Positions 10,528 through 37,036 are shown, counted from the first letter of the stretch. The stretch: 37,036 nucleotides of DNA from Nitrospirota bacterium (GCA_016194305.1 JACQBW010000010.1:1-37036), one strand, 5' to 3'. Made by a program: numbers and translations. The notes: generated by a model from the letters alone, not told the origin.

Positions 10528-11256
10528 ATTCCAGCCGATATGATATCGCGTTAAGAGCGACGTTAACAGGGTGAAGGAATTTGAAGTGATGAGCACTCCC
10601 AGGAAGATCATAAAGATTCCGCTGATGATATTGATGTATTTCATATAGGGGACAAGTTTCTTGTAGGTCGCCAGAATCGAATTAAAACCGAAAGAGAGAA
10701 TAAATAAAGGAATTCCGATCCCCAAGGAGTACGCCGAAAGCAAAAAGACGCCGTTCCATACAGAATCTGAGGTACTCGCATAGAGCAAGATCGTTCCCAG
10801 TATGGGTCCCACACAGGGGGTCCAGCCGGAGGCAAATGCGACTCCAACGATAAATGAGCCGGCAAGGCCCGCGGGCTTGTCTTGAAGGTGGATTCTTCTG
10901 TCGGACATCAAAAATGCAAGTTTAAGGATTCCCATGATATAGAAACCAAAGAAAATAACAATGATGCCGCTGATTTTTCGAATGATACCCTGGTAGGTGT
11001 GGAGAAATTGCCCAAGCGTGGTCGCTGTGGCCCCAAAAAGGATAAATACGAAAGAAAATCCTCCGATAAACATCAGGGAGTTCTTGATGATCATCCATTT
11101 GATGATTTCAGGCGATTCGGATTCGTCCGTCAGATCGTCAAATGAGAGGCCGGTGATATAACAGAGATAGGACGGGACAACAGGCAGGACGCAGGGAGAA
11201 ATGAAAGAAAATAAGCCGGCGGTAAAAGCCATGAAATAAGAGACAGTCGAAGTCAT
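10516..11256 (-). CDS. ccdA: Cytochrome c biogenesis protein CcdA
   Basis: This is a 246-residue DsbD transmembrane-domain homologue with about six spans. The redox cysteines lie in SPCVLPVVPSYL (Cys22) and GWTPCVGPILG (Cys148), as expected for CcdA. It carries electrons from cytoplasmic thioredoxin across the membrane to periplasmic thioredoxin-like proteins that keep apocytochrome CXXCH cysteines reduced. The ResA/TlpA-like gene just upstream (TGATG overlap) and CcmG/CcmH further upstream are the natural acceptors. It is the last gene of the cytochrome c maturation cluster. Confidence 0.92.
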   Translation of the reverse strand: MTSTVSYFMAFTAGLFSFISPCVLPVVPSYLCYITGLSFDDLTDESESPEIIKWMIIKNSLMFIGGFSFVFILFGATATTLGQFLHTYQGIIRKISGIIVIFFGFYIMGILKLAFLMSDRRIHLQDKPAGLAGSFIVGVAFASGWTPCVGPILGTILLYASTSDSVWNGVFLLSAYSLGIGIPLFILSFGFNSILATYKKLVPYMKYINIISGIFMIFLGVLITSNSFTLLTSLLTRYHIGWNPGK

Positions 11257-11819
11257 CAGCTCGGGGATCGAATAAGCTGAGCCAAAAGATTCTTTTGTTT
11301 AGGATCGGCCCAGTCAATCGCTCCAAAAAAACGGTTGGTAATCATGCCGCTTCGATCGACCACAATACTGGTGGGAATCGAGGTGACACCATATAAATCG
11401 TTTATTTTAAGAGTTTCGTCAATGAGAACGGGAAACGTAAACGCGTACTCGTGGACAAAAGGTTTAACACTCGACAAGCCATCTTCGTCGGTCGATACCG
11501 CCAGAATTTCAAAATCCCTTCGATCGAAATTCCGATAAATCTCTTCCATCGAAGGCATTTCCGATCTACAGGGTCCGCACCAGGTTGCCCAAAAGTTGAT
11601 CAGGACTATTTTCCCTCGAAGCGAGGCCAGCGTGACCGGCTCGCCTTTCACATTCTGAAGCAGGAAATCGGGCGCAATAAATCCCACTTTTGCCATCTGG
11701 GGAGGCTTGATTTCCGCCTGGGCTTTTGGCGCAGCTGGAGGTTGGGAACTGGACGCTGAACATCCCTGAAACAGCAGGATGATATAAAATAACGCAACCA
11801 TTGTAGAGTGTCTGGCCAT
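11256..11819 (-). CDS. TlpA/ResA-like thioredoxin, probable lipoprotein
   Basis: A 187-residue periplasmic thioredoxin-fold protein. Its N-terminal hydrophobic segment ends in LLFQGC (Cys20), an imperfect lipobox. The AhpC-TSA/Redoxin fold begins near FIAPDFLLQNVKGE, the active site FWATWCGPC has Cys81 and Cys84, and the cis-proline region is SIPTSIVVDRSG. It probably accepts electrons from CcdA and reduces apocytochrome or CcmH thiols. It is the second such protein in the cluster; CcmG at 13588-14151 is the other. Its ATG overlaps the DUF2007 stop (TAATG), and its stop overlaps ccdA. Confidence 0.88.
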   Translation of the reverse strand: MARHSTMVALFYIILLFQGCSASSSQPPAAPKAQAEIKPPQMAKVGFIAPDFLLQNVKGEPVTLASLRGKIVLINFWATWCGPCRSEMPSMEEIYRNFDRRDFEILAVSTDEDGLSSVKPFVHEYAFTFPVLIDETLKINDLYGVTSIPTSIVVDRSGMITNRFFGAIDWADPKQKNLLAQLIRSPS

Positions 11820-12088
11820 TAGTTTAATCCGCCATGAATAAACCGGCCGCTCGAGGAGATCACCTCGTCTTTAATGGCCTGAGAGATAAATTCATGGGCA
11901 TTGATTTCGTCGGAAGCGAGGACCAATATTCTCTTCTCGTTGAAATGTCCAATACTCATGGGATAAGGAGAATTGCCAAGATCTCTGATTTGAACCTGGA
12001 GCCCTTCTTCCTGGAGAAGGTTCTTGATCTGTTCCGCTTCAAGGAGATCATAAGTTGCGTAAAGTTCAATCATTCGGTTGCCTGTCAT
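11819..12088 (-). CDS. DUF2007 family small protein
   Basis: This 89-residue protein matches the pattern of DUF2007 (annotated in databases as putative signal-transducing): ELYATYDLLEAEQIKNLLQ, a central GNSPYP segment and a C-terminal LVLASDEINAHEFISQ helix. The fold is ferredoxin-like, and no catalytic residues can be named. AGGA lies eight bases before ATG 12088. It sits between ccmI (26-base gap) and the ResA-like gene (one-base overlap), so it is co-transcribed with cytochrome c maturation genes, although its role there is unknown. Confidence 0.75.
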   Translation of the reverse strand: MTGNRMIELYATYDLLEAEQIKNLLQEEGLQVQIRDLGNSPYPMSIGHFNEKRILVLASDEINAHEFISQAIKDEVISSSGRFIHGGLN

Positions 12089-12114
12089 GGCGGGTTCCTG
12101 CCGAATACCGGGGG

Positions 12115-13062
12115 TTAGTTGGCAGGAGTTTTCCCTGATCTTAAATTCTGCAGTGCCTGCTTTACAAATTCAGCGTCTTTTGAACCGGGAGGAAGATACT
12201 GGTAGGCCTCGGTCCAGACCTGGTCCGTTTCCATGTTTTTGCCAAGATTCAAAAGCGCGATACCCTTTGTCCAGAGAACGACGGGCTCCCTCGGCACGAT
12301 CATCAAGGCAATATTCAGATGTTCAAGCGCCTCCTGATAGACAGCTGAATCGCCAGGCTTGGCACTCTTAAGCAGGACGTCTGCATAATTAAATTGTGCC
12401 ACTTCATTTCGTCTGTCCAATTCCACCGCCTTCTTCCAGGCGTTTTTCGCATCATCCCACCGTTGCAGGGTCGCATAAGATCGACCCGCCATCATTTGCC
12501 CCTGAAGATCGTTCGGATTTTCTTTCAATTTCTTTTCGAGCCGGGCCACCATCTCAATGGGATTGACCGGGGGGACCATTTCGCCCGCTTCCCGCGTTCC
12601 TTCTTCATTCGACGCCTGTTGGGACCTCTGAATTTTACCATAGACCAGGGAACGGATTTCTGCCGTGCCGGCCACAAATAGAATTCCAATCAGGAATGAG
12701 AGAATCAGGCGATGCTCCACTTTCATCATTGCCGAAGAAGGTGCAGTACTCCCGATATCGGTCATCGCCACCTCTTTTATCTTCTTCCTTTCCAGCACTT
12801 CTAAAACAGTCAGAAGCTGGTGTTCAATAGAGGTTTTCAACCGGCGAAAATCTTCCGGAGAGTATTTTCCCTGAGCATGGTCCAGGTCAAGATCGGACAG
12901 AGTGGCAAGCAGAGTCTGTTTTTCTATTTTTAAATTCGTCTCGTCTTCTTCTTCGGACGCATGATTCCGGGTGACGGATTTTCGATCCTTTTTGATCCAG
13001 AATGGCATGATGAGGGCAATGACGACCGGTATGAGAAACAGGCCAGCGTAGATTAGAAACAT
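12115..13062 (-). CDS. ccmI: Cytochrome c maturation protein CcmI-like, TPR protein
   Basis: A 315-residue membrane protein. It has an N-terminal span (about 3-22) and a cytoplasmic helical segment with the CcmI pattern KQTLLATLSDLDLDHAQGKYS followed by SPEDFRRLKTSIE. A second span (about 134-150) and a periplasmic TPR region (about 180-310, PNDLQGQMMAGRSYATLQRW and DAKNAWKKAVELDRRN) follow. CcmI holds apocytochrome C-termini and presents them to the CcmF/H heme ligation complex. It lies 29 bases downstream of ccmH, with AAGGTG ahead of its ATG. Confidence 0.88.
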   Translation of the reverse strand: MFLIYAGLFLIPVVIALIMPFWIKKDRKSVTRNHASEEEDETNLKIEKQTLLATLSDLDLDHAQGKYSPEDFRRLKTSIEHQLLTVLEVLERKKIKEVAMTDIGSTAPSSAMMKVEHRLILSFLIGILFVAGTAEIRSLVYGKIQRSQQASNEEGTREAGEMVPPVNPIEMVARLEKKLKENPNDLQGQMMAGRSYATLQRWDDAKNAWKKAVELDRRNEVAQFNYADVLLKSAKPGDSAVYQEALEHLNIALMIVPREPVVLWTKGIALLNLGKNMETDQVWTEAYQYLPPGSKDAEFVKQALQNLRSGKTPAN

Positions 13063-13091
13063 GGATGAATCACCTTAAACAATTGAGTTCA

Positions 13092-13583
13092 TTAATTTTT
13101 GAAAGTACGGATAGCCAGATCAATTTTCTTCTGATCCTCTTCGGTGAGGTCGGACATTTTTTCTAAGGGAACGGCTAAAGTATCACGTGTCCACGATCTG
13201 ATACTGACCAAGAGAATGATCGCTCCGATGAAGAGCAGAATAAAAGGTCCTCCCCAAAGCAGCCAATTCAGACCAATGGGTCTTGGTTTTAACAAAATAA
13301 AATCGCCATAGCGGCTGACAAAGTAGGCTCTGATCTGATTGGGAGACTCTCCCTGCTGGAGCCGTTCCCGGATGATCTCGCGCATCTGAAGCGCAAGTTC
13401 CGCGTTGGATTCCCAAACTGACTCGGACTGACAGACAGCACACCGAAGCGTTTTAGCCACCTCTTTGGTCTGAGCCTGCAGGTCATCTTCGGACAGCATC
13501 GTATTTCCTGTGCCGACCCAGGCAACCAAGAAGAAGGACGCGAGGAAAACGACTGTCAGAGGTCTCATTCTGTCCGGATTCAT
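13092..13583 (-). CDS. ccmH: Cytochrome c maturation protein CcmH
   Basis: This 163-residue CcmH/NrfF/CycL protein has a signal segment, the hallmark redox motif LRCAVCQSESVWESNA (Cys48, Cys51) and a helical domain (MREIIRERLQQGES). The RYGDFILLKPR element and a C-terminal membrane span (about 104-125) follow. It handles the thiols of apocytochrome heme-binding motifs during ligation, exchanging with CcmG. It lacks the fused TPR part found in E. coli CcmH; that function is the separate ccmI gene downstream. Confidence 0.93.
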   Translation of the reverse strand: MNPDRMRPLTVVFLASFFLVAWVGTGNTMLSEDDLQAQTKEVAKTLRCAVCQSESVWESNAELALQMREIIRERLQQGESPNQIRAYFVSRYGDFILLKPRPIGLNWLLWGGPFILLFIGAIILLVSIRSWTRDTLAVPLEKMSDLTEEDQKKIDLAIRTFKN

Positions 13584-13587
13584 TGCG

Positions 13588-14151
13588 TCAGGATTTCTCT
13601 TTTAATAAGGGTTCGATCACTTCCCGGGTGAATTTAATATAAGTTTCTCCGACAAGAGGTCCAATCTCCTTATGTCGGATGATTCCGCTTTGATCGATCA
13701 CAAATGTTTCAGGTACCCCATAAACACCGTAATCGATGGAGATTCTTCCCTGGGTATCGATAATGTGTTGAAAATTGTTTCCATATTGCTGGAGATAATC
13801 TTTGGCCAGATCTTCCTTGTCCTGATAATCCACTCCCAAAAGAACAAATTGAGCGTTTTGTCCATATTGTCGATTCAGACTCTGAAGCGACTCATGTTCC
13901 AGTTTACATTCCTGACACCAGGAAGACCAAAAATTCAAAACCACCACTTTCCCCCTGAACTGGTCAAGCGTCACCCGCTCCTTCTTATAAAGATCCGGAG
14001 CTTCGAACCGGGGTGCGGGGGTGCCAACGAGGACCGGCGGAATAAATGACGGGTTCCCATAGAGCCCCTTATAAAAGAGAATCAGCAGTCCCAGAATTAC
14101 GGAAAGGAGTACGATATGCCAAACGCGAAGCCCCCCAGAATTTTCGTTCAT
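13588..14151 (-). CDS. ccmG: Thiol:disulfide protein CcmG/DsbE-like
   Basis: A 187-residue membrane-anchored periplasmic thioredoxin with its anchor at about 11-28 and the active site FWSSWCQECKLEHESLQ (Cys79, Cys82). The GVYGVPETFVIDQSGIIRHKEIG stretch carries the cis-proline and the CcmG-type loop. It reduces the apocytochrome/CcmH disulfide before heme attachment. Its ATG overlaps the ccmF stop by four bases and ccmH follows after four bases. The WCQEC dipeptide differs from the WCPTC-type motif of proteobacterial CcmG and the CGPC of the second thioredoxin in this cluster. Confidence 0.9.
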   Translation of the reverse strand: MNENSGGLRVWHIVLLSVILGLLILFYKGLYGNPSFIPPVLVGTPAPRFEAPDLYKKERVTLDQFRGKVVVLNFWSSWCQECKLEHESLQSLNRQYGQNAQFVLLGVDYQDKEDLAKDYLQQYGNNFQHIIDTQGRISIDYGVYGVPETFVIDQSGIIRHKEIGPLVGETYIKFTREVIEPLLKEKS

Positions 14152-16190
14152 GGCTCGGGTGAAACCCTCTTCGAAGACAGCTGGGGCAGTGGCGAGATCG
14201 GTTCAGCCGCCGAAGGGGAGGAAGACGAATGGAAAGAATAAACCTCCTTTCGGCGCGGCCGAAATATATTCAAGAGTCCTCCTAAAACCATGATCCCGCC
14301 CCCGTACCAGACCCACAGGACCAGGGGATTATAAAGGGCGCGCACTCTGGCCCACGATCCGTCTGGAGCCACTTCCGGTATTGTTAAAAAGACATGACCC
14401 ATGTAAATCTGATGGAGCGCAGTCTCGGTTGTTGGGGTCTGCGTCACGGTATAGATCCTTTTTTGGGGGCGCATTTCTGAAATCAAAATGTTGTTTTCGT
14501 AGAGATTAAATGCACCCTCCTGGGCAACCCAGTTTGGTCCGACCGCTTCATAGAGACGAATCAATTCGATTCTAAACGCGTTGAGTGTCACCGACTCGCC
14601 GGGTTTTAAGACAACGACTTTTTCGGTCTGGTAAATCGTCGAGAAGATGATCCCGACAACCATCACCAATACGCCGATATGGGTCAGGATTCCGGCATAG
14701 CGCCTTGGGTTTTGGCGAAACGCCGCATAAAAGCCCTGAAATGGGTTTATCTTCCTCTGTCTGGCCCAGAAACGGGATACTTTTGAGAAATCAAGGAGGA
14801 TTGAAGTCAATGCAAAGATGACGACGGTCAAACCCGAAAGGGCGTAAAGGTCATGTATTCCTCCAATATAAGAGAGGACGAGTCCCGATCCGGCGATTAA
14901 CAAAGGAATTACGAAGTGGGATCTTAAATTGTCCCGGGTCACTTTTCGCCAGGAGATATACGGCCCGACCCCCATCAAAAAAATCAAACCGAGTGCGACC
15001 GGCATAAAGACCGCATTATAGTAAGGGGGACCCACAGAGACTTTTTTTAGCTTGAGCGCTTCCGTGAGGAGCGGATAAAGAGTTCCGATAAAAACCGTAA
15101 TCATCGCGACCAGAAAAAAGAGATTGTTAAAGAGAAATACCGATTCGCGAGAGACCATGGAATCCATGAGAACCAGGCTTTTAAGTTTTGCCGAACGGAA
15201 TATCAGAGTTCCAAAGGACAACAGGAGCATGGAAGAAAGAAATCCGAGAATAAAAACACCTCGGCCGGGATCTGCCGCGAAGGAGTGCACGGATGAAAGA
15301 ACCCCGCTTCTGACCAGGAAGGTGCCGATCAACGAAAGAGAAAATGCCAGAATAATCAAGAAAAGGTTCCAGACCTTAAACATTTTCCGCGTTTCCTGAA
15401 CCATGACAGAATGGAGAAAAGCGGTTGCAATGAGCCAGGGCATGAAGGCGGCATTTTCGACCGGATCCCAGCCCCAGTAACCTCCCCATCCCAGTTCATA
15501 ATAGGCCCAATATCCTCCCATCAGGATTCCGGTTGTCAAGGCCATCCAGGCCAGGAGTGTCCAACGTTGTGTGACCTTAATCCATTCCTCTCCCAGGCGT
15601 CCTGAAAATAGAGCCGCCATGGCGAAACAGAACGGGATTGAAAGTCCCACATATCCCAGATAGAGCATTGGAGGGTGCCCGACCATTGCGGGATCCTGAA
15701 GCAGGGGATTCAAATCCCGGCCATCAGACGGTGCGGGAAATATCCTTTCAAATGGATTGGAGAGGAAAAGAATGAGCAGAAGAAACCCGCTGAGAATGAG
15801 CGATTCCATCGCGATTAAATAGGGAATCACAACCGGTTGGGTTTTCCAATGAATCCAGACGGCTGCCATGCAGTAAAAGGATAAGATCCAGGACCAGAGG
15901 AGCAATGAACCTTCATGTCCTCCCCAGAGTCCGGCTACCTTATAAAAGAACGGAAGTTTGCTGTTGGATGTGGCCCAGACATATTTTACGGAATAATCCT
16001 GTGTAATATAGGAATAAATCATTGCTGCCATTCCAATGGATAACAGGACAAAATTGACCGTAACCGCCTGGCGTCCGATTTCAATCCAGACCCCCTTTTC
16101 TTTTCTTATTCCGACGAGAGGGGCAATGATTCCGAGAATCGCCAGGACAAGCGCGGCGATGACAGCCAGATGACCTATTTCAATTATCAT
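14148..16190 (-). CDS. ccmF: Heme lyase subunit CcmF
   Basis: This 680-residue multi-span protein (about 14-15 spans) is the core of the System I heme ligase. The WWD domain, GWGGYWGWDPVENAAFMPWL, binds heme from holo-CcmE. WGGHEGSLLLWSWIL near residue 90 and the conserved histidines and periplasmic C-terminal domain (WVAQEGAFNLYEN, MRPQKRIYTVTQTPTTETAL) are also present. GAGGAAA stands nine bases before ATG 16190. It lies 60 bases downstream of ccmE and overlaps ccmG. Confidence 0.97.
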   Translation of the reverse strand: MIIEIGHLAVIAALVLAILGIIAPLVGIRKEKGVWIEIGRQAVTVNFVLLSIGMAAMIYSYITQDYSVKYVWATSNSKLPFFYKVAGLWGGHEGSLLLWSWILSFYCMAAVWIHWKTQPVVIPYLIAMESLILSGFLLLILFLSNPFERIFPAPSDGRDLNPLLQDPAMVGHPPMLYLGYVGLSIPFCFAMAALFSGRLGEEWIKVTQRWTLLAWMALTTGILMGGYWAYYELGWGGYWGWDPVENAAFMPWLIATAFLHSVMVQETRKMFKVWNLFLIILAFSLSLIGTFLVRSGVLSSVHSFAADPGRGVFILGFLSSMLLLSFGTLIFRSAKLKSLVLMDSMVSRESVFLFNNLFFLVAMITVFIGTLYPLLTEALKLKKVSVGPPYYNAVFMPVALGLIFLMGVGPYISWRKVTRDNLRSHFVIPLLIAGSGLVLSYIGGIHDLYALSGLTVVIFALTSILLDFSKVSRFWARQRKINPFQGFYAAFRQNPRRYAGILTHIGVLVMVVGIIFSTIYQTEKVVVLKPGESVTLNAFRIELIRLYEAVGPNWVAQEGAFNLYENNILISEMRPQKRIYTVTQTPTTETALHQIYMGHVFLTIPEVAPDGSWARVRALYNPLVLWVWYGGGIMVLGGLLNIFRPRRKEVYSFHSSSSPSAAEPISPLPQLSSKRVSPEP

Positions 16191-16250
16191 TGATCCGTTT
16201 CCTCAATTAAGACTTTTCTCACTTGTTTACCAGACTGGCAGGAGAACGTG

Positions 16251-16706
16251 CTAATTCATCTTCAAGGTCTTGTAAAAATCCTTCTTGGGGAGGACTGCTC
16301 CCCCTTTTTTCATTTCCGGAGGCATATAATCTTCAGAGTGTTTGGCCATAATCATCTGGGAATGGAGTCTTTTATCTCCATCCCAGAACCCCTCGACGAC
16401 AGCCCCTTGTCCTTCTTTAAAAAGATCCGGCGGGATTCCTTCGAACGTGACCGGAATGACCGCCGCGCCGTCGGTCAGGTTAAAGGTAATGTTTTTGGTC
16501 AGGGGGTCGATCTTGACGCTCTGTTTAACCACCAGGCCGGCGACCCGGACTTTTTTATGGTAACGGTCCTGGGTAAATGCCGCCACTTCAGACGGGGTAA
16601 AAAAGTAGACCAGGTTCTTGCCAAAATTACCAAAGATCAGGTAGGCGAGCGCGGAGGCAATCACCAGAATGCTGAGGATAATTCCTGTTTTCTTATTCCA
16701 TTTCAT
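16251..16706 (-). CDS. ccmE: Heme chaperone CcmE
   Basis: This 151-residue protein has one N-terminal membrane anchor (about 7-25) and a periplasmic OB-fold domain (VRVAGLVVKQSVKI, ITFNLTDGAAVIPVTFEG). The heme-binding motif is KHSEDYMPPEM, with His123 as the covalent heme attachment residue and Tyr127 as ligand, so it is the classic His-type rather than Cys-type. It receives heme from CcmABC and passes it to CcmF. Its ATG overlaps the stop of the CcmE-like gene upstream (ATGA). Confidence 0.95.
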   Translation of the reverse strand: MKWNKKTGIILSILVIASALAYLIFGNFGKNLVYFFTPSEVAAFTQDRYHKKVRVAGLVVKQSVKIDPLTKNITFNLTDGAAVIPVTFEGIPPDLFKEGQGAVVEGFWDGDKRLHSQMIMAKHSEDYMPPEMKKGGAVLPKKDFYKTLKMN

Positions 16707-17197
16707 CCGGATTCTTCCGATTGATAAACCTTTTCTTCTTTGATTCTATCGTACAACAGGACGACTTTTCGTTCCATCTTAAAAAGAAAAAATAAGAGAG
16801 GTATTAATCCGACGAAATAGGCCGCCGTAATAAAACCATAGTTTGGCGTGAGCGCCATTTTTCGGGACTCAAACCGGTGAGTCGACGAATCCCAGGTTCC
16901 AACCAGGACCACAACTTTAAATTCCCTTAAATTGTCCAGATCGTCCCCGGTATAAAGGACCGGTATTTTGCGTTGCGATCCGGAAAGTTCAAAAATGGCC
17001 TGCTGCCGGCCTGATTCGAATTGCAGGCTTCCGGGTTCAATTCGACCCTGGACCCGGACCGGGATCGAGGCGGACTTCTGCTCTAACTCATCCGGAGATA
17101 TGACGGCCACCTCTTTCAGGTAACGATTTCCGGCGATGAGGCTGAACACAATACATAGCAGAAAAATGATGCTCCAGCGAAGATAGAATTTTTTCAC
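16703..17197 (-). CDS. CcmE-like OB-fold membrane protein without heme ligand
   Basis: An unnamed 164-residue protein with a span at each end (about 7-23 and 121-140) and a beta-rich periplasmic domain between. Its strand order resembles CcmE: IPVRVQGRIEPGSL, QAIFELSGSQRKIPVLYTG, VVLVGTWDSSTHRFESRKMAL. It has no HxxxY or CxxxY motif and no cysteine or histidine in the position of the heme ligand; the chain ends the domain with LTPNYGF and turns into TM2. It starts with GTG (17197). It occupies the place where ccmD normally lies, between ccmC and ccmE, and overlaps ccmE. A structural or CcmD-like role in the CcmABC-E complex is inferred, not shown. Confidence 0.7.
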   Translation of the reverse strand: MKKFYLRWSIIFLLCIVFSLIAGNRYLKEVAVISPDELEQKSASIPVRVQGRIEPGSLQFESGRQQAIFELSGSQRKIPVLYTGDDLDNLREFKVVVLVGTWDSSTHRFESRKMALTPNYGFITAAYFVGLIPLLFFLFKMERKVVLLYDRIKEEKVYQSEESG

Positions 17198-17210
17198 GAA
17201 ATACTGTCCA

Positions 17211-17924
17211 TTACAACTGGATCTCGCTCAGAAGGCGGCCCTGTTTCGCTTCAAGCAGATATTCAAGATAGAGCATCTGTGTCCGAACCATCAACATATA
17301 CGCAAACAGGAGATAGAGGCCGATTGACATGCAAATTAAAGGGATCAGAATAGGGGTGGCAATGCTGACACCACGACTGGAAATGGAGAGAGGCTGGTGA
17401 AGCGTACGCCACCATTCAACGGAAAAATGGACGATGGGAAGGTCGACAAACCCGATGATGGCCAGGACCGCGGAGTAGCGGGCTTCTTTTTCCTTATCAT
17501 CGAGGAATGAGCGAAGCATAATATATCCGATCAAAATAAGGAGGAGGACTGCAAAGGAAACCAGTCGTGGATCCCAGGTCCACCAGGTGTTCCAGGTGGG
17601 TTTCGCCCAGATTGAGCCCGTAATCAGGGCCACCGTGGTAAAGAGGATTCCGATACCCGCCGAGGCATGACAGAGATTGTCGATCACCGGATCCCTTTTC
17701 CATAAATACCAGAGGCTTCCAAAAAAGAGCACCGTATAGGCGAGCATGGCCCCCTCTGCAAAGGGGACATGAATGTACATAATACGGACGACCTCTCCCT
17801 GGTAGTAGTCTGAAGGGGAAACGACAAGCGCCTGATAAAGTCCGACGGCCAGAAACAGGCCGGCCATCAGAGCGATCCAGTTTTGTACTTTTCTCAATCT
17901 TCCGATAAAGCGTGATGCAAGCAT
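17211..17924 (-). CDS. ccmC: Heme export/handling protein CcmC
   Basis: About 237 residues with six spans and the WWD motif (TWNTWWTWDPRLVSF) that presents heme to CcmE. Conserved histidines flank it: YIHVPFAEGAM before it and IVHFSVEWWRTLHQ after it. I prefer ATG 17924 with AGGAG upstream. A longer reading from a TTG at 17960 would run back into ccmB and adds no conserved sequence. The gap to the upstream ccmB stop is 13 bases. Confidence 0.93.
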   Translation of the reverse strand: MLASRFIGRLRKVQNWIALMAGLFLAVGLYQALVVSPSDYYQGEVVRIMYIHVPFAEGAMLAYTVLFFGSLWYLWKRDPVIDNLCHASAGIGILFTTVALITGSIWAKPTWNTWWTWDPRLVSFAVLLLILIGYIMLRSFLDDKEKEARYSAVLAIIGFVDLPIVHFSVEWWRTLHQPLSISSRGVSIATPILIPLICMSIGLYLLFAYMLMVRTQMLYLEYLLEAKQGRLLSEIQL

Positions 17925-17937
17925 CTTGGAAAATCTC

Positions 17938-18615
17938 CTAATAATCCAGTATGAATTCAAAAACCCAAAAAGAAACGATCATAAAGATCAGATCAAATAC
18001 GGCCAGCAATTCCAGCCACTGCAGGTACAAATAGAGGGGATCCCCATTAAGCGCTCCCCGCGTTGATTCAACCGCACCGATAAAAACCGGTACAGCAAGA
18101 GGAAGAAGAAGGATGGGAAACATGACCTCTCGTGCCCGTATCTGTACTGTCAGGGCTGAGAAAAGGGTTCCGAGCGCGGATAAACCCATTGTCGCAACTA
18201 AAAATATTAACAGAATAATGGGGAGTTTATCAAGTATATCTAGATTAAAGAAAAGGATGAAAAGGGGAAACAAGATGATTTCCGCCAGAAGCAGGAAGAG
18301 AATATTTCCAAATAATTTCCCGAGATAGATGGCTCCCTTTGAGACCGGTGCCATCTGGAGGTATTCCATGCAGTCATTCTGAACTTCAGGCAGAAACGAT
18401 TTCCCGAGTCCGATTATTCCGGTAAACCCGAATGCCACCCAGATGATTCCAGGCATGAGTTCTTTCGTGGCCGCCTGATCCATTGAAAAGCTGAAACTGA
18501 AAATGAGAATGACGGCCAGTGCGAAAAAAAACATGGAGGAGACGTTTTCCCGGTTTCGGATTTCACTCACCAGATCTTTCCAGACGATCCATTGAATTAC
18601 CTTAAAAAATTGCAT
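17938..18615 (-). CDS. ccmB: Heme exporter membrane subunit CcmB
   Basis: This 225-residue ABC-type permease has six spans. Family features include the opening IVWKDLVSEIRNRENVSSM and a conserved LYLGKLFGN-type segment (GAIYLGKLFGNILF). The segment LGTLFSALTVQIRAREVMFPILLLPLAVP is CcmB-specific (shown here in part). It works with CcmA in release of holo-CcmE from CcmC. GGAGG is three bases before the ATG, and the gene overlaps the end of ccmA by 14 bases. Confidence 0.93.
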   Translation of the reverse strand: MQFFKVIQWIVWKDLVSEIRNRENVSSMFFFALAVILIFSFSFSMDQAATKELMPGIIWVAFGFTGIIGLGKSFLPEVQNDCMEYLQMAPVSKGAIYLGKLFGNILFLLLAEIILFPLFILFFNLDILDKLPIILLIFLVATMGLSALGTLFSALTVQIRAREVMFPILLLPLAVPVFIGAVESTRGALNGDPLYLYLQWLELLAVFDLIFMIVSFWVFEFILDY

Positions 18616-19276
18616 GTTCCTCCAGAAGGCTCTTGACAGAAATTTCTTTCAAATTTCCGTTAATCAAGACGCCCGCCTGATGTGCCACCTCGGCTGTTTT
18701 AATTCTTTCATGCGTTGTCATGAGGATGGTCATGCCTTCACGGTTAAAATCCCGGATGCATTGATTCAAGGTCTCGACGCCCCGCTCATCGAGAGAAGAA
18801 TACCCTTCGTCCAATAAGAGAACTTTGGGGCGAATGAGTATGGCTCTCGCAATGGAAAGTCTCTTCTTCATCCCCGCAGAGAGGAAGCGGCTTTTAAGCT
18901 TTGCAAACGGACCGATCCCGACCCGATCCAGCGCGGTTTTTATTTCGAGCCGGGAAGGAGAGATTCCTCTGATTTCAAGAGCAAACTGAACATTTTCCTC
19001 CGTAGTCAAATCATCATAGAGGTAGGAGCCGTGTCCGATGAGAAAGATCTGCTCCCGGACCTTCATTTTTTCGGACAGGCCCTGAAACCCCTGGATTTTG
19101 AAATTTCCCGAGGTGGGACGGATCAGGGTCGCAAGAATTCTGAGCAGAGTTGATTTTCCGGCACCATTTGGACCGAACAGGGCATAACAGCTCCCTTCCC
19201 GGATCTCAAATGAGACGCCCCGCAACACCTGATGGTGCTGGTAAGATTTGATGAGCTGATCTCCGGAAATAGACAT
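18602..19276 (-). CDS. ccmA: Heme exporter ATPase CcmA
   Basis: This 224-residue ABC ATPase has Walker A GPNGAGKST near residue 34, signature LSAGMKKRLSIARAI and Walker B VLLLDEGYSSLD. The signature LSAGMKKR deviates from LSGGQ, as is common in CcmA-type and export ATPases. It powers release of heme-loaded CcmE. It overlaps ccmB by 14 bases and begins 26 bases after gmd; no strong ribosome-binding site is visible. Confidence 0.9.
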   Translation of the reverse strand: MSISGDQLIKSYQHHQVLRGVSFEIREGSCYALFGPNGAGKSTLLRILATLIRPTSGNFKIQGFQGLSEKMKVREQIFLIGHGSYLYDDLTTEENVQFALEIRGISPSRLEIKTALDRVGIGPFAKLKSRFLSAGMKKRLSIARAILIRPKVLLLDEGYSSLDERGVETLNQCIRDFNREGMTILMTTHERIKTAEVAHQAGVLINGNLKEISVKSLLEEHAIF

Positions 19277-32521: not shown

Positions 32522-33679
32522 ATGGCATTGAATAACCGAACTGATTTATCGTTTTATTATAACGCCGTTCGGAATTTTTTTTTAGCTTTTTTATTCATTT
32601 TTTTCAGTTTATCTTCTCTTTCCTGTCATTCTCCAGCCGCTCAAAACAAGATCCAAACCTCGTCCAATAAGTCTCTGTCCGTTGCAAAAACCCGTTTCTT
32701 GCCTGTCTGGACAAATTACCAGTTAAACGCCGGTGTTCACGCGATTGCATTTGAAGAGCCCCTGATTTGGGTAGGGACGGAACAAGGAGTGATTGTTTAT
32801 GATACGGCGACCGAAAAAGTGATTAAAAAATTCGACAATAAAAGCGGTCTTCTTTCAAACGACGTGACATCCATCGAAATTGACTCGAACGGCAATAAAT
32901 GGGTCGGAACCCATGGAGGGGGACTGGTCATCATTGGGGAGGGGCGCAAAAGGGAGATTAAGAAAATCTACAATGTCCCGTTACTTGCCGATCCCTTTGT
33001 TTATAAGACACTTTTTGATTCCAAAGGGAGGCTCTGGGTGGCGACCTGGAAAGGGGTTAATCTTTATGACGGAAAGCGCTGGATGAAGTTTACGAAGGAA
33101 AATGGCCTGGTTGATAACTGGGTCTATTCATTGGGGATCGATCCGAAAGGAACCCTCTGGTTCGGGACCGAAGGGGGAGTCAATTCGTTTGACGGGACGC
33201 GATGGGAGACGTTCACTCACCAGAATGGCCTTGGAGCTGAACTGAAAGATATTCCTGAATTTGAAAAAATAGTCAATGCCAGCAGGCACCATGCGTCAAC
33301 ACCCGGCAAGGAAGCTGAAGGGTATAATCCGAACTATATTCTTTCTTTGGCCATTGATCAAAACGGGACGAAATGGTTTGGCACGTGGGGAGCGGGATTA
33401 TCGCGGTTTGACGGGAAAGTCTGGAAAAATTTTACCATGAAGGATGGGTTACCGGGCAATTTTGTTGCCGATATTTCTGTGGATTCTGACAATGGTCTGT
33501 GGATTGGAACGGAAGGAGGCATCGGCTATTTTAACGGAACGGAGTGGACCAAATATACACGGGAAGATGGACTCATCGACGATTCCGTCTTTACCATCGC
33601 GAGAGATAAGAAGGGGTCCAAATGGTTCGGCACGCTCGATGGGATCAGCAAACTCGAAAGATTGACCCCTCAGTTATAG
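32522..33679 (+). CDS. Two-component-regulator-type beta-propeller protein, secreted
   Basis: A 385-residue protein with a long N-terminal hydrophobic signal (about 17-35) ending in LSSLSC, an imperfect lipobox, followed by a beta-propeller of repeated Reg_prop blades. At least six copies of a W(I/V/F)GTxGG(V/L) unit are visible, such as LIWVGTEQGVIVYD, KWVGTHGGGLVI, LWFGTEGGVNSFDG and LWIGTEGGIGYFNG, each followed by W..(F/Y)T..(D/N)GL. In hybrid histidine kinases such propellers sense ligands, but here no kinase is attached, so it is an extracytoplasmic binding or scaffold protein of unknown ligand. It lies 175 bases upstream of the multiheme cytochrome gene. Confidence 0.85.
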   Translation: MALNNRTDLSFYYNAVRNFFLAFLFIFFSLSSLSCHSPAAQNKIQTSSNKSLSVAKTRFLPVWTNYQLNAGVHAIAFEEPLIWVGTEQGVIVYDTATEKVIKKFDNKSGLLSNDVTSIEIDSNGNKWVGTHGGGLVIIGEGRKREIKKIYNVPLLADPFVYKTLFDSKGRLWVATWKGVNLYDGKRWMKFTKENGLVDNWVYSLGIDPKGTLWFGTEGGVNSFDGTRWETFTHQNGLGAELKDIPEFEKIVNASRHHASTPGKEAEGYNPNYILSLAIDQNGTKWFGTWGAGLSRFDGKVWKNFTMKDGLPGNFVADISVDSDNGLWIGTEGGIGYFNGTEWTKYTREDGLIDDSVFTIARDKKGSKWFGTLDGISKLERLTPQL

Positions 33680-33854: not shown

Positions 33855-34664
33855 ATGAATCGACGATATCTCCTTTTACTGACTTCATTTCTAATCCTTT
33901 TGCTCTTCACAATTAATGTGGACGGGGGGACAATTATCAAGTCACGTCATGATCTCAGCGCACTCAATTTCAGGGGATATCGAACGGAAACGGGACCGAT
34001 GCAGGGAGCAACGTTTAATGATTATGGCGAAACTTGCATCTATTGCCATACGCCGCATAACAGCAATCCGATTGCCCCATTGTGGAACCGGAATCTCCCG
34101 AATCCATCAGGCTACCAGATGTATTCCAGCCCCAATTTTGATTCCAAAGTGCCGTCGCCCGATGGCATTTCGCTCGCCTGTCTTTCGTGCCATGATGGAA
34201 GCGTGGCGGTTGATTCCGTAGTGAATAAACCAAAATATCATGGATGGCTTGATGCTTCTGTCCATTACAAAATGAACCAGGAGGGGGGAGTCGGTTCCGA
34301 TAGTTGTGGAAAATGCCACAATCGTCTGGAAGGGGCTTATGGTGGTATCGGGGCGACCGGAATCGGAGGTGCCCATGATGCGACAGTACGTTATTTAGCA
34401 CGCGACTTACGAGATGATCATCCTTTTTCGATTGCCTATCCCAATACCGATCTTGACCCGGGATTTAATCAACCGATGCTGGTTAAGAAAGATGGGGGAC
34501 GAATGTTTCCAAATGGTGTGCAAACTTTTGAAGGAAACAAAGTGCAGTGTGCCAGCTGCCATGATCCACATAATCCGGATGAAAAAAATCTCGAAGGGAG
34601 GGATCCGTTCTTGAGGACGAGTAATAGGAATAGTGCGCTGTGTCTGACCTGTCACATCAAGTAA
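33855..34664 (+). CDS. Five-heme c-type cytochrome (doubled CXXCH family)
   Basis: A 269-residue secreted protein with a signal peptide (about 1-24) and five CXXCH heme sites at 61-65 (CIYCH), 109-113 (CLSCH), 151-155 (CGKCH), 232-236 (CASCH) and 263-267 (CLTCH). Several are followed by TPHN, DPHN or DG, as in the paired-CXXCH family. It shares the layout CHTPH...APLWNR...SPNFD...GxSLACLSCHDG with the four-heme protein at 35729-36799, so the two are paralogues. It is a probable periplasmic or outer-surface electron carrier. The 175 bases upstream hold an imperfect palindrome (ACGTTTAGAAACGT) but no clear promoter. Confidence 0.9.
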   Translation: MNRRYLLLLTSFLILLLFTINVDGGTIIKSRHDLSALNFRGYRTETGPMQGATFNDYGETCIYCHTPHNSNPIAPLWNRNLPNPSGYQMYSSPNFDSKVPSPDGISLACLSCHDGSVAVDSVVNKPKYHGWLDASVHYKMNQEGGVGSDSCGKCHNRLEGAYGGIGATGIGGAHDATVRYLARDLRDDHPFSIAYPNTDLDPGFNQPMLVKKDGGRMFPNGVQTFEGNKVQCASCHDPHNPDEKNLEGRDPFLRTSNRNSALCLTCHIK

Positions 34665-34675
34665 ACGTGGTTCTG

Positions 34676-34798
34676 CAGACTGTTGAAAAAACATCATTTG
34701 GGTCGTTCTCGTCGCTCGGCAATCCTCACGTACTGATTCTGTACGCTCCGGTTGCCTCGCTCCTGCGGCCTACCAACTGATGTCTTTTGAACAGTCTG
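34676..34798. repeat. Palindromic intergenic element, copy 3 (123 bp)
   Basis: Terminal inverted repeats CAGACTGTTGAAAAAACATC and GATGTCTTTTGAACAGTCTG flank an inner palindrome with GGCAA...TTGCC and CGTAC...GTACG around TGATTCT. The core (TTCTCG, CTCG, CACGTA, TACGC, TCCG, CTCGC, CTGCGGCC) matches the elements at 23390-23606 in order and spacing, while paired arm bases differ in a compensating way. It lies 11 bases after a cytochrome stop codon, as copy 1 lies directly after one. Confidence 0.85.
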
Positions 34799-34827
34799 GA
34801 AAAGTAAGATGTGTTACTAAAATCTCG

Positions 34828-35732
34828 ATGGAAGTGAAAAGGGTGAAAAAGTTGCCTATAAAAATATATCAATGGGGTTGGGTGGTGGTGGGGGTGATGC
34901 TGATTGCGGCCTGTTCCGCGGTTCCGGTTAAGAAGACGGAGATCATCTGGCCTCTCCCACCTGATCCTCCAAGAATCAAGTTTGTCAGAACCATCGAATC
35001 GGCCGCGGAGGTTGAAAAAAAGAGTTTCGGGAAATCGCTATTAGAATTTCTGGTCGGGAAAGAACCTTTGGTTCATCTTCAAAAACCTTATGCCGTACAT
35101 ACGGACCGGAATGAGCGGGTCTATATTGCGGATTCCGCCTGGCGGAAAATACTGATCTTCGATTACCGGAAAAAAGAGTTTAAATTTCTCGGTCTGGACG
35201 GACCGATCGACTTCGAAGGGTGTATGTGGTGGACACCAAGAAACATAATGTCGACATTTTTGATTATGATGGCAAGCTGATCTCCGAATTTGGCGGCAGG
35301 GGAGTGAACGATGGACAGTTCAATATTCCAACCAATCTTGCTTTAGATGCGGAAGGGAAAGTGTATGTGATGGACACTTTTAATTTCCGTGTTCAAATAT
35401 TTGATGCAGATGGCCATTTTTTATCCAAGTTTGGAAGTGTCGGAACAGGCCTGGGGCAATTTTCAAAAGCAAAGGGGATTGGTGTCGACAGCGAAGGCCA
35501 TATTTATGTGGTCGATGCGTCATTTAACAATATACAGATTTTTAATCAGGAAGGAGAGCTTCTCCTCTTTTTTGGCGATTTCGGAAAGGAGGAGGGAAAA
35601 TTCTTCCTTCCTGCCGGTTTATGGATCGATGAAAACGATCAGATTTTTGTTGCAGATCAATATAACAAGCGCATTGATGTTTTTCAATTTATGGGAGAAA
35701 AATGGAAAGCCAGGGAACAAGCCCGAAAATGA
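34828..35732 (+). pseudogene. NHL-repeat lipoprotein, frameshifted
   Basis: The N-terminal part has a signal with lipobox LIAACS and begins at ATG 34828 (ATG 34780 lies inside the repeat element; GTG 34843 is possible). It runs in one frame to about 35219, and the remainder continues from 35220 in the next frame (VYVVDTKKHNVDIFDYDG) to the stop at 35732. The visible blades repeat every 47 residues, each beginning VYVVD, VYVMD, IYVVD or IFVAD. The interval across the junction is only 34 residues, so about 13 residues are missing together with the frame change: a deletion, not just a single-base slip. Intact, it would be an outer-membrane-attached NHL beta-propeller. Its stop overlaps the next cytochrome start (ATGA). 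Confidence 0.8.
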
Positions 35733-36799
35733 AAAAATATTTCATCAAGGACCCACAGGAATATCTGCTTCGTGAGGGAGCGAAATCGCCGGGATTTCTC
35801 CTCTCGTGGATTCTTGTTTTGCTGATTTCAGGAAGCGCCGCCGCATCCGAAGATATCGCTCATACGAAACATAACCTTGCCGTCAATCCCGACATTCAGG
35901 CAGGAAGCGGAGCGTATAATCTCAACGGCGACATCTGTGTCTTTTGCCATACCCCGCACGGCGGCCGGCTCGATGTGGGAGGAGGGGCGGCTCCCTTGTG
36001 GAATCGAAGGCTCCCGCTTTCTTCTTCGTTTATTCCTTATGACAGTCCGAATTTTGACAAAGCGGGGATCCAGGCGGGTCAACCGAAGGGCGTTTCGCTG
36101 GCCTGCCTCTCTTGCCACGATGGCACGATCGCATTTGATTCTTTGATCAATGCTCCGGGATCAGGAGGTTATTTTGTCAGCAATAAACTTCAGTCCGGAG
36201 GGCCGGGCGTCAATGTCGGTTTGAATTTTTCGGGTCCGGGTGTCGATCCTTCCCTCAAAACCTTTAAACCCGGAAATCGAACGGATAACACGGCGGGCGG
36301 CTTTATCTTTTTTGGATCTGACGGAACGACTCCCAACGGGAATATTGGAGGCACTTCCCCCTTTCCCAATTTGACGGCGGATCTTTCCGATGATCATCCG
36401 GTCGGAATGGCGATTCCTGCCTCGGATCCTCAATTTACCCAGATCCTCTCCAATATCAATATCGCGCCGGGCGGCGATGGACATGCCGCGGGCTCGGGGA
36501 CCAACCATGTTTTCTGGATCACCCGCGATGGCGCGTTACAGCCTGACAAGAGAGACCGGCTTCGGGCTTATCCATCCGATCCGACCAATCCGGATACGCC
36601 CTATATCGAATGTGCGTCGTGTCACAATCCGCATGAAGCCAGCCGGCCACTGGGACAGCCGGCATTAACGGATCCGGTTAATCCCATGACCGTCAACAAT
36701 TCACGATTTTTGCGGGCACCTGATCCGAACCGGCCCGGGGCCAATATGAACGATCGGAACGCAAGCAGCGCCCTATGTTTAAGTTGTCATCAAAAATAG
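35729..36799 (+). CDS. Four-heme c-type cytochrome (doubled CXXCH family)
   Basis: About 356 residues from ATG 35729 (ATG 35702, with GGGAG nearby, is an alternative). After a signal or anchor segment (about 21-39, GFLLSWILVLLISGSAAAS) come four CXXCH sites: CVFCHTPHGG, CLSCHDGT, CASCHNPHE and a terminal CLSCHQK. It parallels the five-heme protein at 33855-34664 but has a long Gly/Pro/Asn-rich insert (about 150-265) between hemes 2 and 3 and lacks the third site. This insert includes DDHPVGMAIP, matching DDHPFSIAYP of the paralogue. It is a probable extracytoplasmic electron carrier, made with the NHL protein. Confidence 0.9.
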   Translation: MKKYFIKDPQEYLLREGAKSPGFLLSWILVLLISGSAAASEDIAHTKHNLAVNPDIQAGSGAYNLNGDICVFCHTPHGGRLDVGGGAAPLWNRRLPLSSSFIPYDSPNFDKAGIQAGQPKGVSLACLSCHDGTIAFDSLINAPGSGGYFVSNKLQSGGPGVNVGLNFSGPGVDPSLKTFKPGNRTDNTAGGFIFFGSDGTTPNGNIGGTSPFPNLTADLSDDHPVGMAIPASDPQFTQILSNINIAPGGDGHAAGSGTNHVFWITRDGALQPDKRDRLRAYPSDPTNPDTPYIECASCHNPHEASRPLGQPALTDPVNPMTVNNSRFLRAPDPNRPGANMNDRNASSALCLSCHQK

Positions 36800-37036
36800 C
36801 ATTTTTTATTTTCATTATTTTTTTAAGCGGAACGGGCATTAGAATTTTTGCGGAGGAGCAAGAGGAGACCCGAATTGTTGCGGAAGTCAATGGTGCTCCC
36901 ATTCGCTTCCCGGCGTTCCAGGAAGAGCTCAAAAAATCGAAGTCGAGTTTAGGGCATCGTGAATTTTCTCCAGAGAGACTGGACGAGATCAAAAGGGATG
37001 TCCTGGATCACCTCATCGGAAAAGAACTCGTTGTGC
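36775..37036 (+). CDS. SurA/PpiC-like peptidyl-prolyl isomerase, 5' part
   Basis: This reading begins at ATG 36775, overlaps the cytochrome end by 25 bases, and runs open to the window edge. A signal peptide (MFKLSSKIAFFIFIIFLSGT...FA) is followed by EETRIVAEVNGAPIRFPAFQ and RLDEIKRDVLDHLIGKELVV, the pattern of the SurA/PrsA N-terminal chaperone domain. The catalytic parvulin domain would lie beyond the window. In several multiheme cytochrome loci such isomerases help fold the exported proteins, which would fit here. Confidence 0.8.
   Translation, partial: MFKLSSKIAFFIFIIFLSGTGIRIFAEEQEETRIVAEVNGAPIRFPAFQEELKKSKSSLGHREFSPERLDEIKRDVLDHLIGKELVV

Follow-up and report, generated by a model that had tools for sequence, protein, structure and literature searches.

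The genes at the 3' end of the analysed DNA are likely the 5' half of an outer-membrane electron conduit of the Uet (undecaheme electron transfer) type, whose most probable task is the uptake of electrons from an external donor toward a bd-like oxidase. The window, i.e. the whole stretch of 37,036 nucleotides, is the entire contig C10 of a Nitrospirota genome (2.27 Mb, 37 contigs, 95% complete). We conclude that it holds the front half of a Uet-type cluster in a groundwater-type Nitrospirota.

All genes of the island in the window are read on the plus strand. The first encodes an exported Reg_prop beta-propeller of 385 aa (32522..33679, Pfam PF07494, E 1.2e-25), homologues of which adjoin the cluster in two relatives (L042 and L043) and lie beyond the triheme genes, on their far side, in other families. 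It is followed by cytA (33855..34664), an exported pentaheme c-type cytochrome of 269 aa with 5 CXXCH motifs, which matches OmcE (7tfs) with E 6.1e-21; beside a tetraheme module of the OmcE type it has one more heme motif. Few of the proteins that we compared are conserved as well as cytA (66-83% identity, 5 CXXCH in 16/16 relatives). The NHL1 gene for an NHL beta-propeller lipoprotein comes next, from about 34828 to 35732, with the lipobox LIAAC and an NHL match (PF01436, E 5.8e-15) in its second half. Its stop overlaps the start of cytB (ATGA), which encodes the equivalent of UetA, an exported tetraheme cytochrome with 4 CXXCH motifs (35729..36799, open from 35702; OmcE 7tfs, E 1.6e-15). The last gene, the UetB equivalent, is present as the N-terminal part of a periplasmic peptidyl-prolyl isomerase of the SurA/PpiC type (36775..37036, SurA_N match) and is cut by the contig end. 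The preliminary description of this DNA had reported two paralogous multiheme cytochromes on both sides of an NHL lipoprotein, a SurA-like isomerase after the second one and a further propeller protein upstream, and all of these were confirmed. The paralogy was apparent in a search within the same genome, where the cytA profile recovered cytB at E 2.9e-26.

We observed that NHL1 is not a single open frame but is spread over two frames (34780-35280 and 35220-35732). Alignment with the close relatives L042 and L043 revealed that 166 nt are missing around window position 35204-35225. Since 166 is not a multiple of three, the frame is broken. A plain frameshift was ruled out, as the alignment gives a gap of 166 nt and not of one base. 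In the present assembly NHL1 is therefore either a broken gene or a misassembled one.

Two other observations concern the same contig. Between cytA and NHL1, at 34671-34803, we found a repeat element whose two inverted arms of 31 nt are 84% complementary and lie 71 nt apart. About 29 partial copies of it (71-93% identity) occur elsewhere in the genome, and in appearance it is a small non-coding element of the mobile or REP-like kind. Further upstream, at 11256-19276, the window contains ORFs which, judged from their translations, resemble a cytochrome c maturation cluster (thioredoxin-like, CcmH/CcmF-like, ABC exporter).

Contig C10 stops at base 37036, within the isomerase gene. Its final 893 bases overlap the end of contig C21 and are 96% identical to it, with differences that are mostly silent, as expected of strain variants at an assembly break. 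Beyond the overlap C21 carries the remaining part of the isomerase (280 aa when complete; L009:18022-18864, minus strand, Rotamase E 3.2e-17), a 623-aa protein, an NHL lipoprotein of 347 aa and a 971-aa cytochrome, and further on a surface protein of 2769 aa in which a fibronectin type III match was found, a protein of 166 aa and two proteins with an FGE domain. From the 96% identity alone C21 could be a paralogous copy instead of the continuation; we rejected this, as each of the overlaps reaches a contig end and the genes stand in this order on single contigs in relatives. In genome G002 one contig (L042) spans the region from Reg_prop through the giant protein, and the join of C10 and C21 therefore does not depend on the overlap alone. 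The giant surface protein and the two proteins with FGE-sulfatase domains lie after the long cytochrome at L009:1830-12255, and FGE genes come after this cytochrome in nearly all relatives.

The preliminary description had likened the layout to outer-membrane electron-conduit loci and had proposed that a porin-like barrel be sought past position 37036. C21 encodes a predicted barrel of this kind and another large cytochrome, both just past the contig end, which supports the comparison. The 623-aa protein, which we call UetC, has no Pfam or NCBIfam match. Its structure, modelled with AlphaFold2 from an alignment with 20 relatives, has 30 beta-strands at a mean pLDDT of 84.6. In the PDB the model is matched best by MtrB from the Mtr complex of Shewanella (6r2q_B, E 3e-9; TM score only 0.35), followed by LptD and TonB-dependent barrels. 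UetC is thus predicted to be a large outer-membrane barrel of about 30 strands that is not demonstrably a homologue of MtrB. Profiles of the Nitrospirota and proteobacterial UetC aligned over 549 columns with probability 98.8, a value to be read with the caution that barrel profiles can match through composition.

The 971-aa cytochrome of C21, UetJ, contains 11 CXXCH motifs and one CX3CH motif near the C-terminus (C939-H944). In an alignment of 48 sequences the additional motif occurred in each of the 32 rows from Nitrospirota, Nitrospinota, Gemmatimonadota, Deltaproteobacteria and Myxococcota; the 16 rows from Alpha-, Beta- and Gammaproteobacteria all lacked it. As this branch carries twelve motifs, it is not rightly called undecaheme. 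The structure model of UetJ (pLDDT 54.1) was too poor for placing the protein in the barrel. One NHL lipoprotein stands before UetJ, in the place of UetH/I, and the other one stands before UetA.

We found relatives of the barrel in 26 of the 58 genomes searched. The recurring order on single contigs is cytA, NHL, cytB, PPIase, barrel, NHL and the cytochrome with 11 CXXCH motifs, and 13 of the 20 loci compared from relatives have it complete; the remaining loci run into contig ends, have genes masked by antisense ORF calls or, in one case (L057), lack UetJ. Since intact versions with the same order recur in relatives, chance can be excluded as the origin of the gene island. The fixed order of barrel, isomerase, NHL and cytochrome genes is kept through the class and partly into other phyla, with homologous clusters in Deltaproteobacteria and Myxococcota. 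A scan of public genomes for the long cytochrome gave 78 loci. A UetJ of full or nearly full length was found in about 20 of 296 Nitrospirota genomes and in none of the listed genomes of the large family f2, which we take to be Nitrospiraceae. Many families of the class outside Nitrospira carry the cluster. It is also carried by Ca. Manganitrophus sp. GAC4 (CP114561.1), a member of the same class. The locus without UetJ (L057:8054-17228, genome G019) contains three tandem UetA-like tetraheme genes.

The preliminary description had suggested that the module could be new. This was not supported, as the content and order of the genes match Uet, so that the cluster is of a known kind. According to a review, the Uet cluster is uetABCDEFGHIJ (PMC12575090). 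In cathode-oxidising Tenderiales, as described in a pangenome study of Gallionellaceae, it comprises the undecaheme UetJ, the tetraheme UetA, the triheme UetD/E/G, the PPIase UetB, the NHL proteins UetH/I and the barrel UetC (PMC10734462). In Ca. Tenderia, the range Tel_16515-16545 includes the genes for the triheme and undecaheme cytochromes (PMC5371394). Uet is known from the cathode oxidiser Ca. Tenderia electrophaga and from iron oxidisers, and has been found in Gallionella (PMC10734462, PMC12575090). For the sequence comparison we relied on Gammaproteobacteria other than Tenderia that show the published order of genes, and Tenderia itself was matched by description. Two such gammaproteobacterial loci (L111 and L132) encode a 4-heme cytochrome, a PPIase, a protein of ~590 aa, two 3-heme cytochromes, a protein of ~540 aa, another 3-heme cytochrome, two NHL proteins and an 11-heme cytochrome, which is the published order A-B-C-D-E-F-G-H-I-J. 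cytB is 30% identical to the product of the first gene of L111 (E 2e-31). The counterparts of the UetB isomerase (E 2e-17) and the NHL protein (E 3e-51) were recovered as well, and UetJ was 36% identical to UetJ of L111 over 406 aa (E 1.5e-58). UetA and UetB are adjacent in our cluster too.

Both clusters share a tetraheme cytochrome, a PPIase, a barrel, NHL proteins and a large cytochrome with 11 CXXCH motifs in the same order relative to each other. The Nitrospirota cluster differs in that cytA and an NHL gene are added ahead of UetA, UetJ carries the additional CX3CH, and FGE-domain genes follow UetJ, joined by the giant surface protein in the family of the window. It also differs in the position of the triheme cytochromes. 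UetD/E/G-like trihemes were not found within the cluster but elsewhere in the genome, on contig C15 (best 57% identity, E 8.6e-43), and several related families have them immediately upstream of cytA, on the opposite strand. Because the trihemes are outside the cluster, we regard it as a variant of Uet and not as an ordinary member. The locus on C15 (L148:5821-9898) contains four triheme cytochromes, and among them a cupredoxin and another secreted repeat protein.

We also compared the cluster with other conduits. Its task is likely equal to that of MtrCAB/MtoAB, namely a barrel with a multiheme wire through the outer membrane, and MtrB was the top fold match. The cluster differs from these systems in the lack of a decaheme protein of the MtrA family over the cut-off (the DmsE/MtrA-type model scored 35.7 bits against a cut-off of 192.2) and in its barrel of about 30 predicted strands. 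Membership in MtrAB/MtoAB was rejected, as no MtrA or MtrB family match was found in Pfam or NCBIfam and the TM score to 6r2q_B was low. Complexes of a porin and a dodecaheme cytochrome (PCC) were reported for Ca. Manganitrophus (PMC9040806). They share with our cluster a barrel and a cytochrome with 12 heme motifs, and GAC4 carries the cluster; by motif count, UetJ fits the PCC of Manganitrophus. PCC_1 was reported only from Manganitrophaceae, whereas our cluster is distributed more widely in the class; the PCC were compared by description. Two traits of PCC3 were sought in the cluster: no protein exceeded 11 CXXCH motifs, while PCC3 has cytochromes with more than 20 hemes, and none of the ORFs was recognised as an inner-membrane redox protein. 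The same genome contains another locus (L061:1-8163, contig C5) with cytochromes of 33 (889 aa), 11 and 13 hemes beside a 698-aa protein without a family match; this second electron-conduit-like cluster resembles loci of the PCC3 type.

The cytochromes of the cluster are related to OmcE, the nanowire protein of Geobacter. In addition to the two cytochromes of the window, the N-terminus of UetJ matches OmcE (7tfs, E 1e-13), and the identity of the modules is 30-39% over about 200 residues. The histidines of the four CXXCH motifs of OmcE and four distal histidines are kept in 8/8 cytA, 10/10 UetA and 13/13 UetJ N-terminal modules (31/31 in total). The stretch of OmcE that we compared has five histidines outside CXXCH, of which H118 is not conserved and the other four are kept; therefore the four conserved distal histidines are probably heme ligands, and by a further step this may include the inter-subunit one. 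In OmcE filaments a histidine that serves as heme ligand is supplied by the adjacent subunit (PMC9473688, PMC12954529). Polymerisation and a stacked hetero-complex are both compatible with the ligand set kept here, which proves neither. The proteins differ from OmcE in that cytA holds a fifth heme motif and UetJ eight further ones. A parallel in the OmcS cluster of Geobacter, in the form of NHL and PPIase genes, was not confirmed: GSU2506 and GSU2507 code for a regulator and a sensor kinase.

In the reading that we prefer, reduced iron, manganese or a solid outside the cell would donate the electrons, which would move inward toward a bd-like oxidase, a match to which is present in the genome. 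UetA and cytA may lengthen the heme chain at the surface, and the dodecaheme UetJ would sit with the barrel and carry electrons through or at the outer membrane. The trihemes, and the neighbouring cupredoxin, could shuttle electrons in the periplasm. The NHL lipoproteins may anchor or scaffold the complex, and the isomerase may aid folding of the barrel or the cytochromes in the periplasm. By analogy, uptake appears the more likely direction, since Uet has been described in oxidisers of cathodes and of iron, and since Manganitrophus has the cluster as well.

The conduit could also run outward and respire solid Fe(III) or Mn(IV) instead of oxidising reduced metal, which we consider unlikely. 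Multiheme conduits can operate both ways, undecaheme cytochromes have been mentioned for a manganese-reducing Dechloromonas, and OmcE and OmcS are proteins of a metal reducer. The homologous clusters in Deltaproteobacteria and Myxococcota are in line with this direction as well, and no heme-copper oxidase was found over the cut-off in the genome. However, the organisms from which Uet was described are a cathode oxidiser and iron oxidisers, the manganese-oxidising Manganitrophus of the same class has the cluster, and the genome contains the bd-like oxidase match. It is very improbable that no electrons cross the membrane at all, the cytochromes being a periplasmic or surface complex for redox reactions or adhesion and the barrel an unrelated porin. 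The barrel does lack a Pfam or NCBIfam match and reaches a TM score of only 0.35 to MtrB, but it is kept together with the isomerase, NHL and cytochrome genes in a fixed order over the class and partly in other phyla.

The relation to OmcE leads to two other readings. The locus might chiefly export and assemble OmcE-like nanowires, with UetA and/or cytA polymerising extracellularly by means of a heme ligand that the neighbouring subunit provides, and with the barrel, isomerase and NHL lipoproteins secreting and anchoring the filament. We regard this as a doubtful explanation. The matches of the window cytochromes to OmcE (6e-21 for cytA, 1.6e-15 for cytB), the conservation of all eight histidines in every module and the use of a histidine from the adjacent subunit in OmcE filaments speak for it. 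On the other hand, the same ligands would suit a protein that stays monomeric or belongs to a fixed hetero-complex, there is one heme more in cytA, and in the literature examined we found no filament reported for any Uet organism. Both ideas could be combined in a conduit that bears a nanowire, where the barrel-bound dodecaheme cytochrome has an OmcE-like outer end and UetA and/or cytA polymerise on it by donated heme ligands, forming one wire from the periplasm to the mineral. This proposal is speculative and we think it rather unlikely. If it were true, OmcE-type nanowires would extend to metal oxidisers of the Nitrospirota, and the cluster would show how such a wire attaches to the outer membrane.

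In summary, these results suggest that the Nitrospirota described here carries a variant of the Uet conduit, probably used for electron uptake. For metal oxidisers of this phylum, including the manganese chemolithoautotroph Manganitrophus, the cluster offers concrete proteins with which electron entry can be tested. It also connects the Uet conduit with the family of the OmcE nanowire, a connection that could explain how wires on the cell surface are attached to the membrane.
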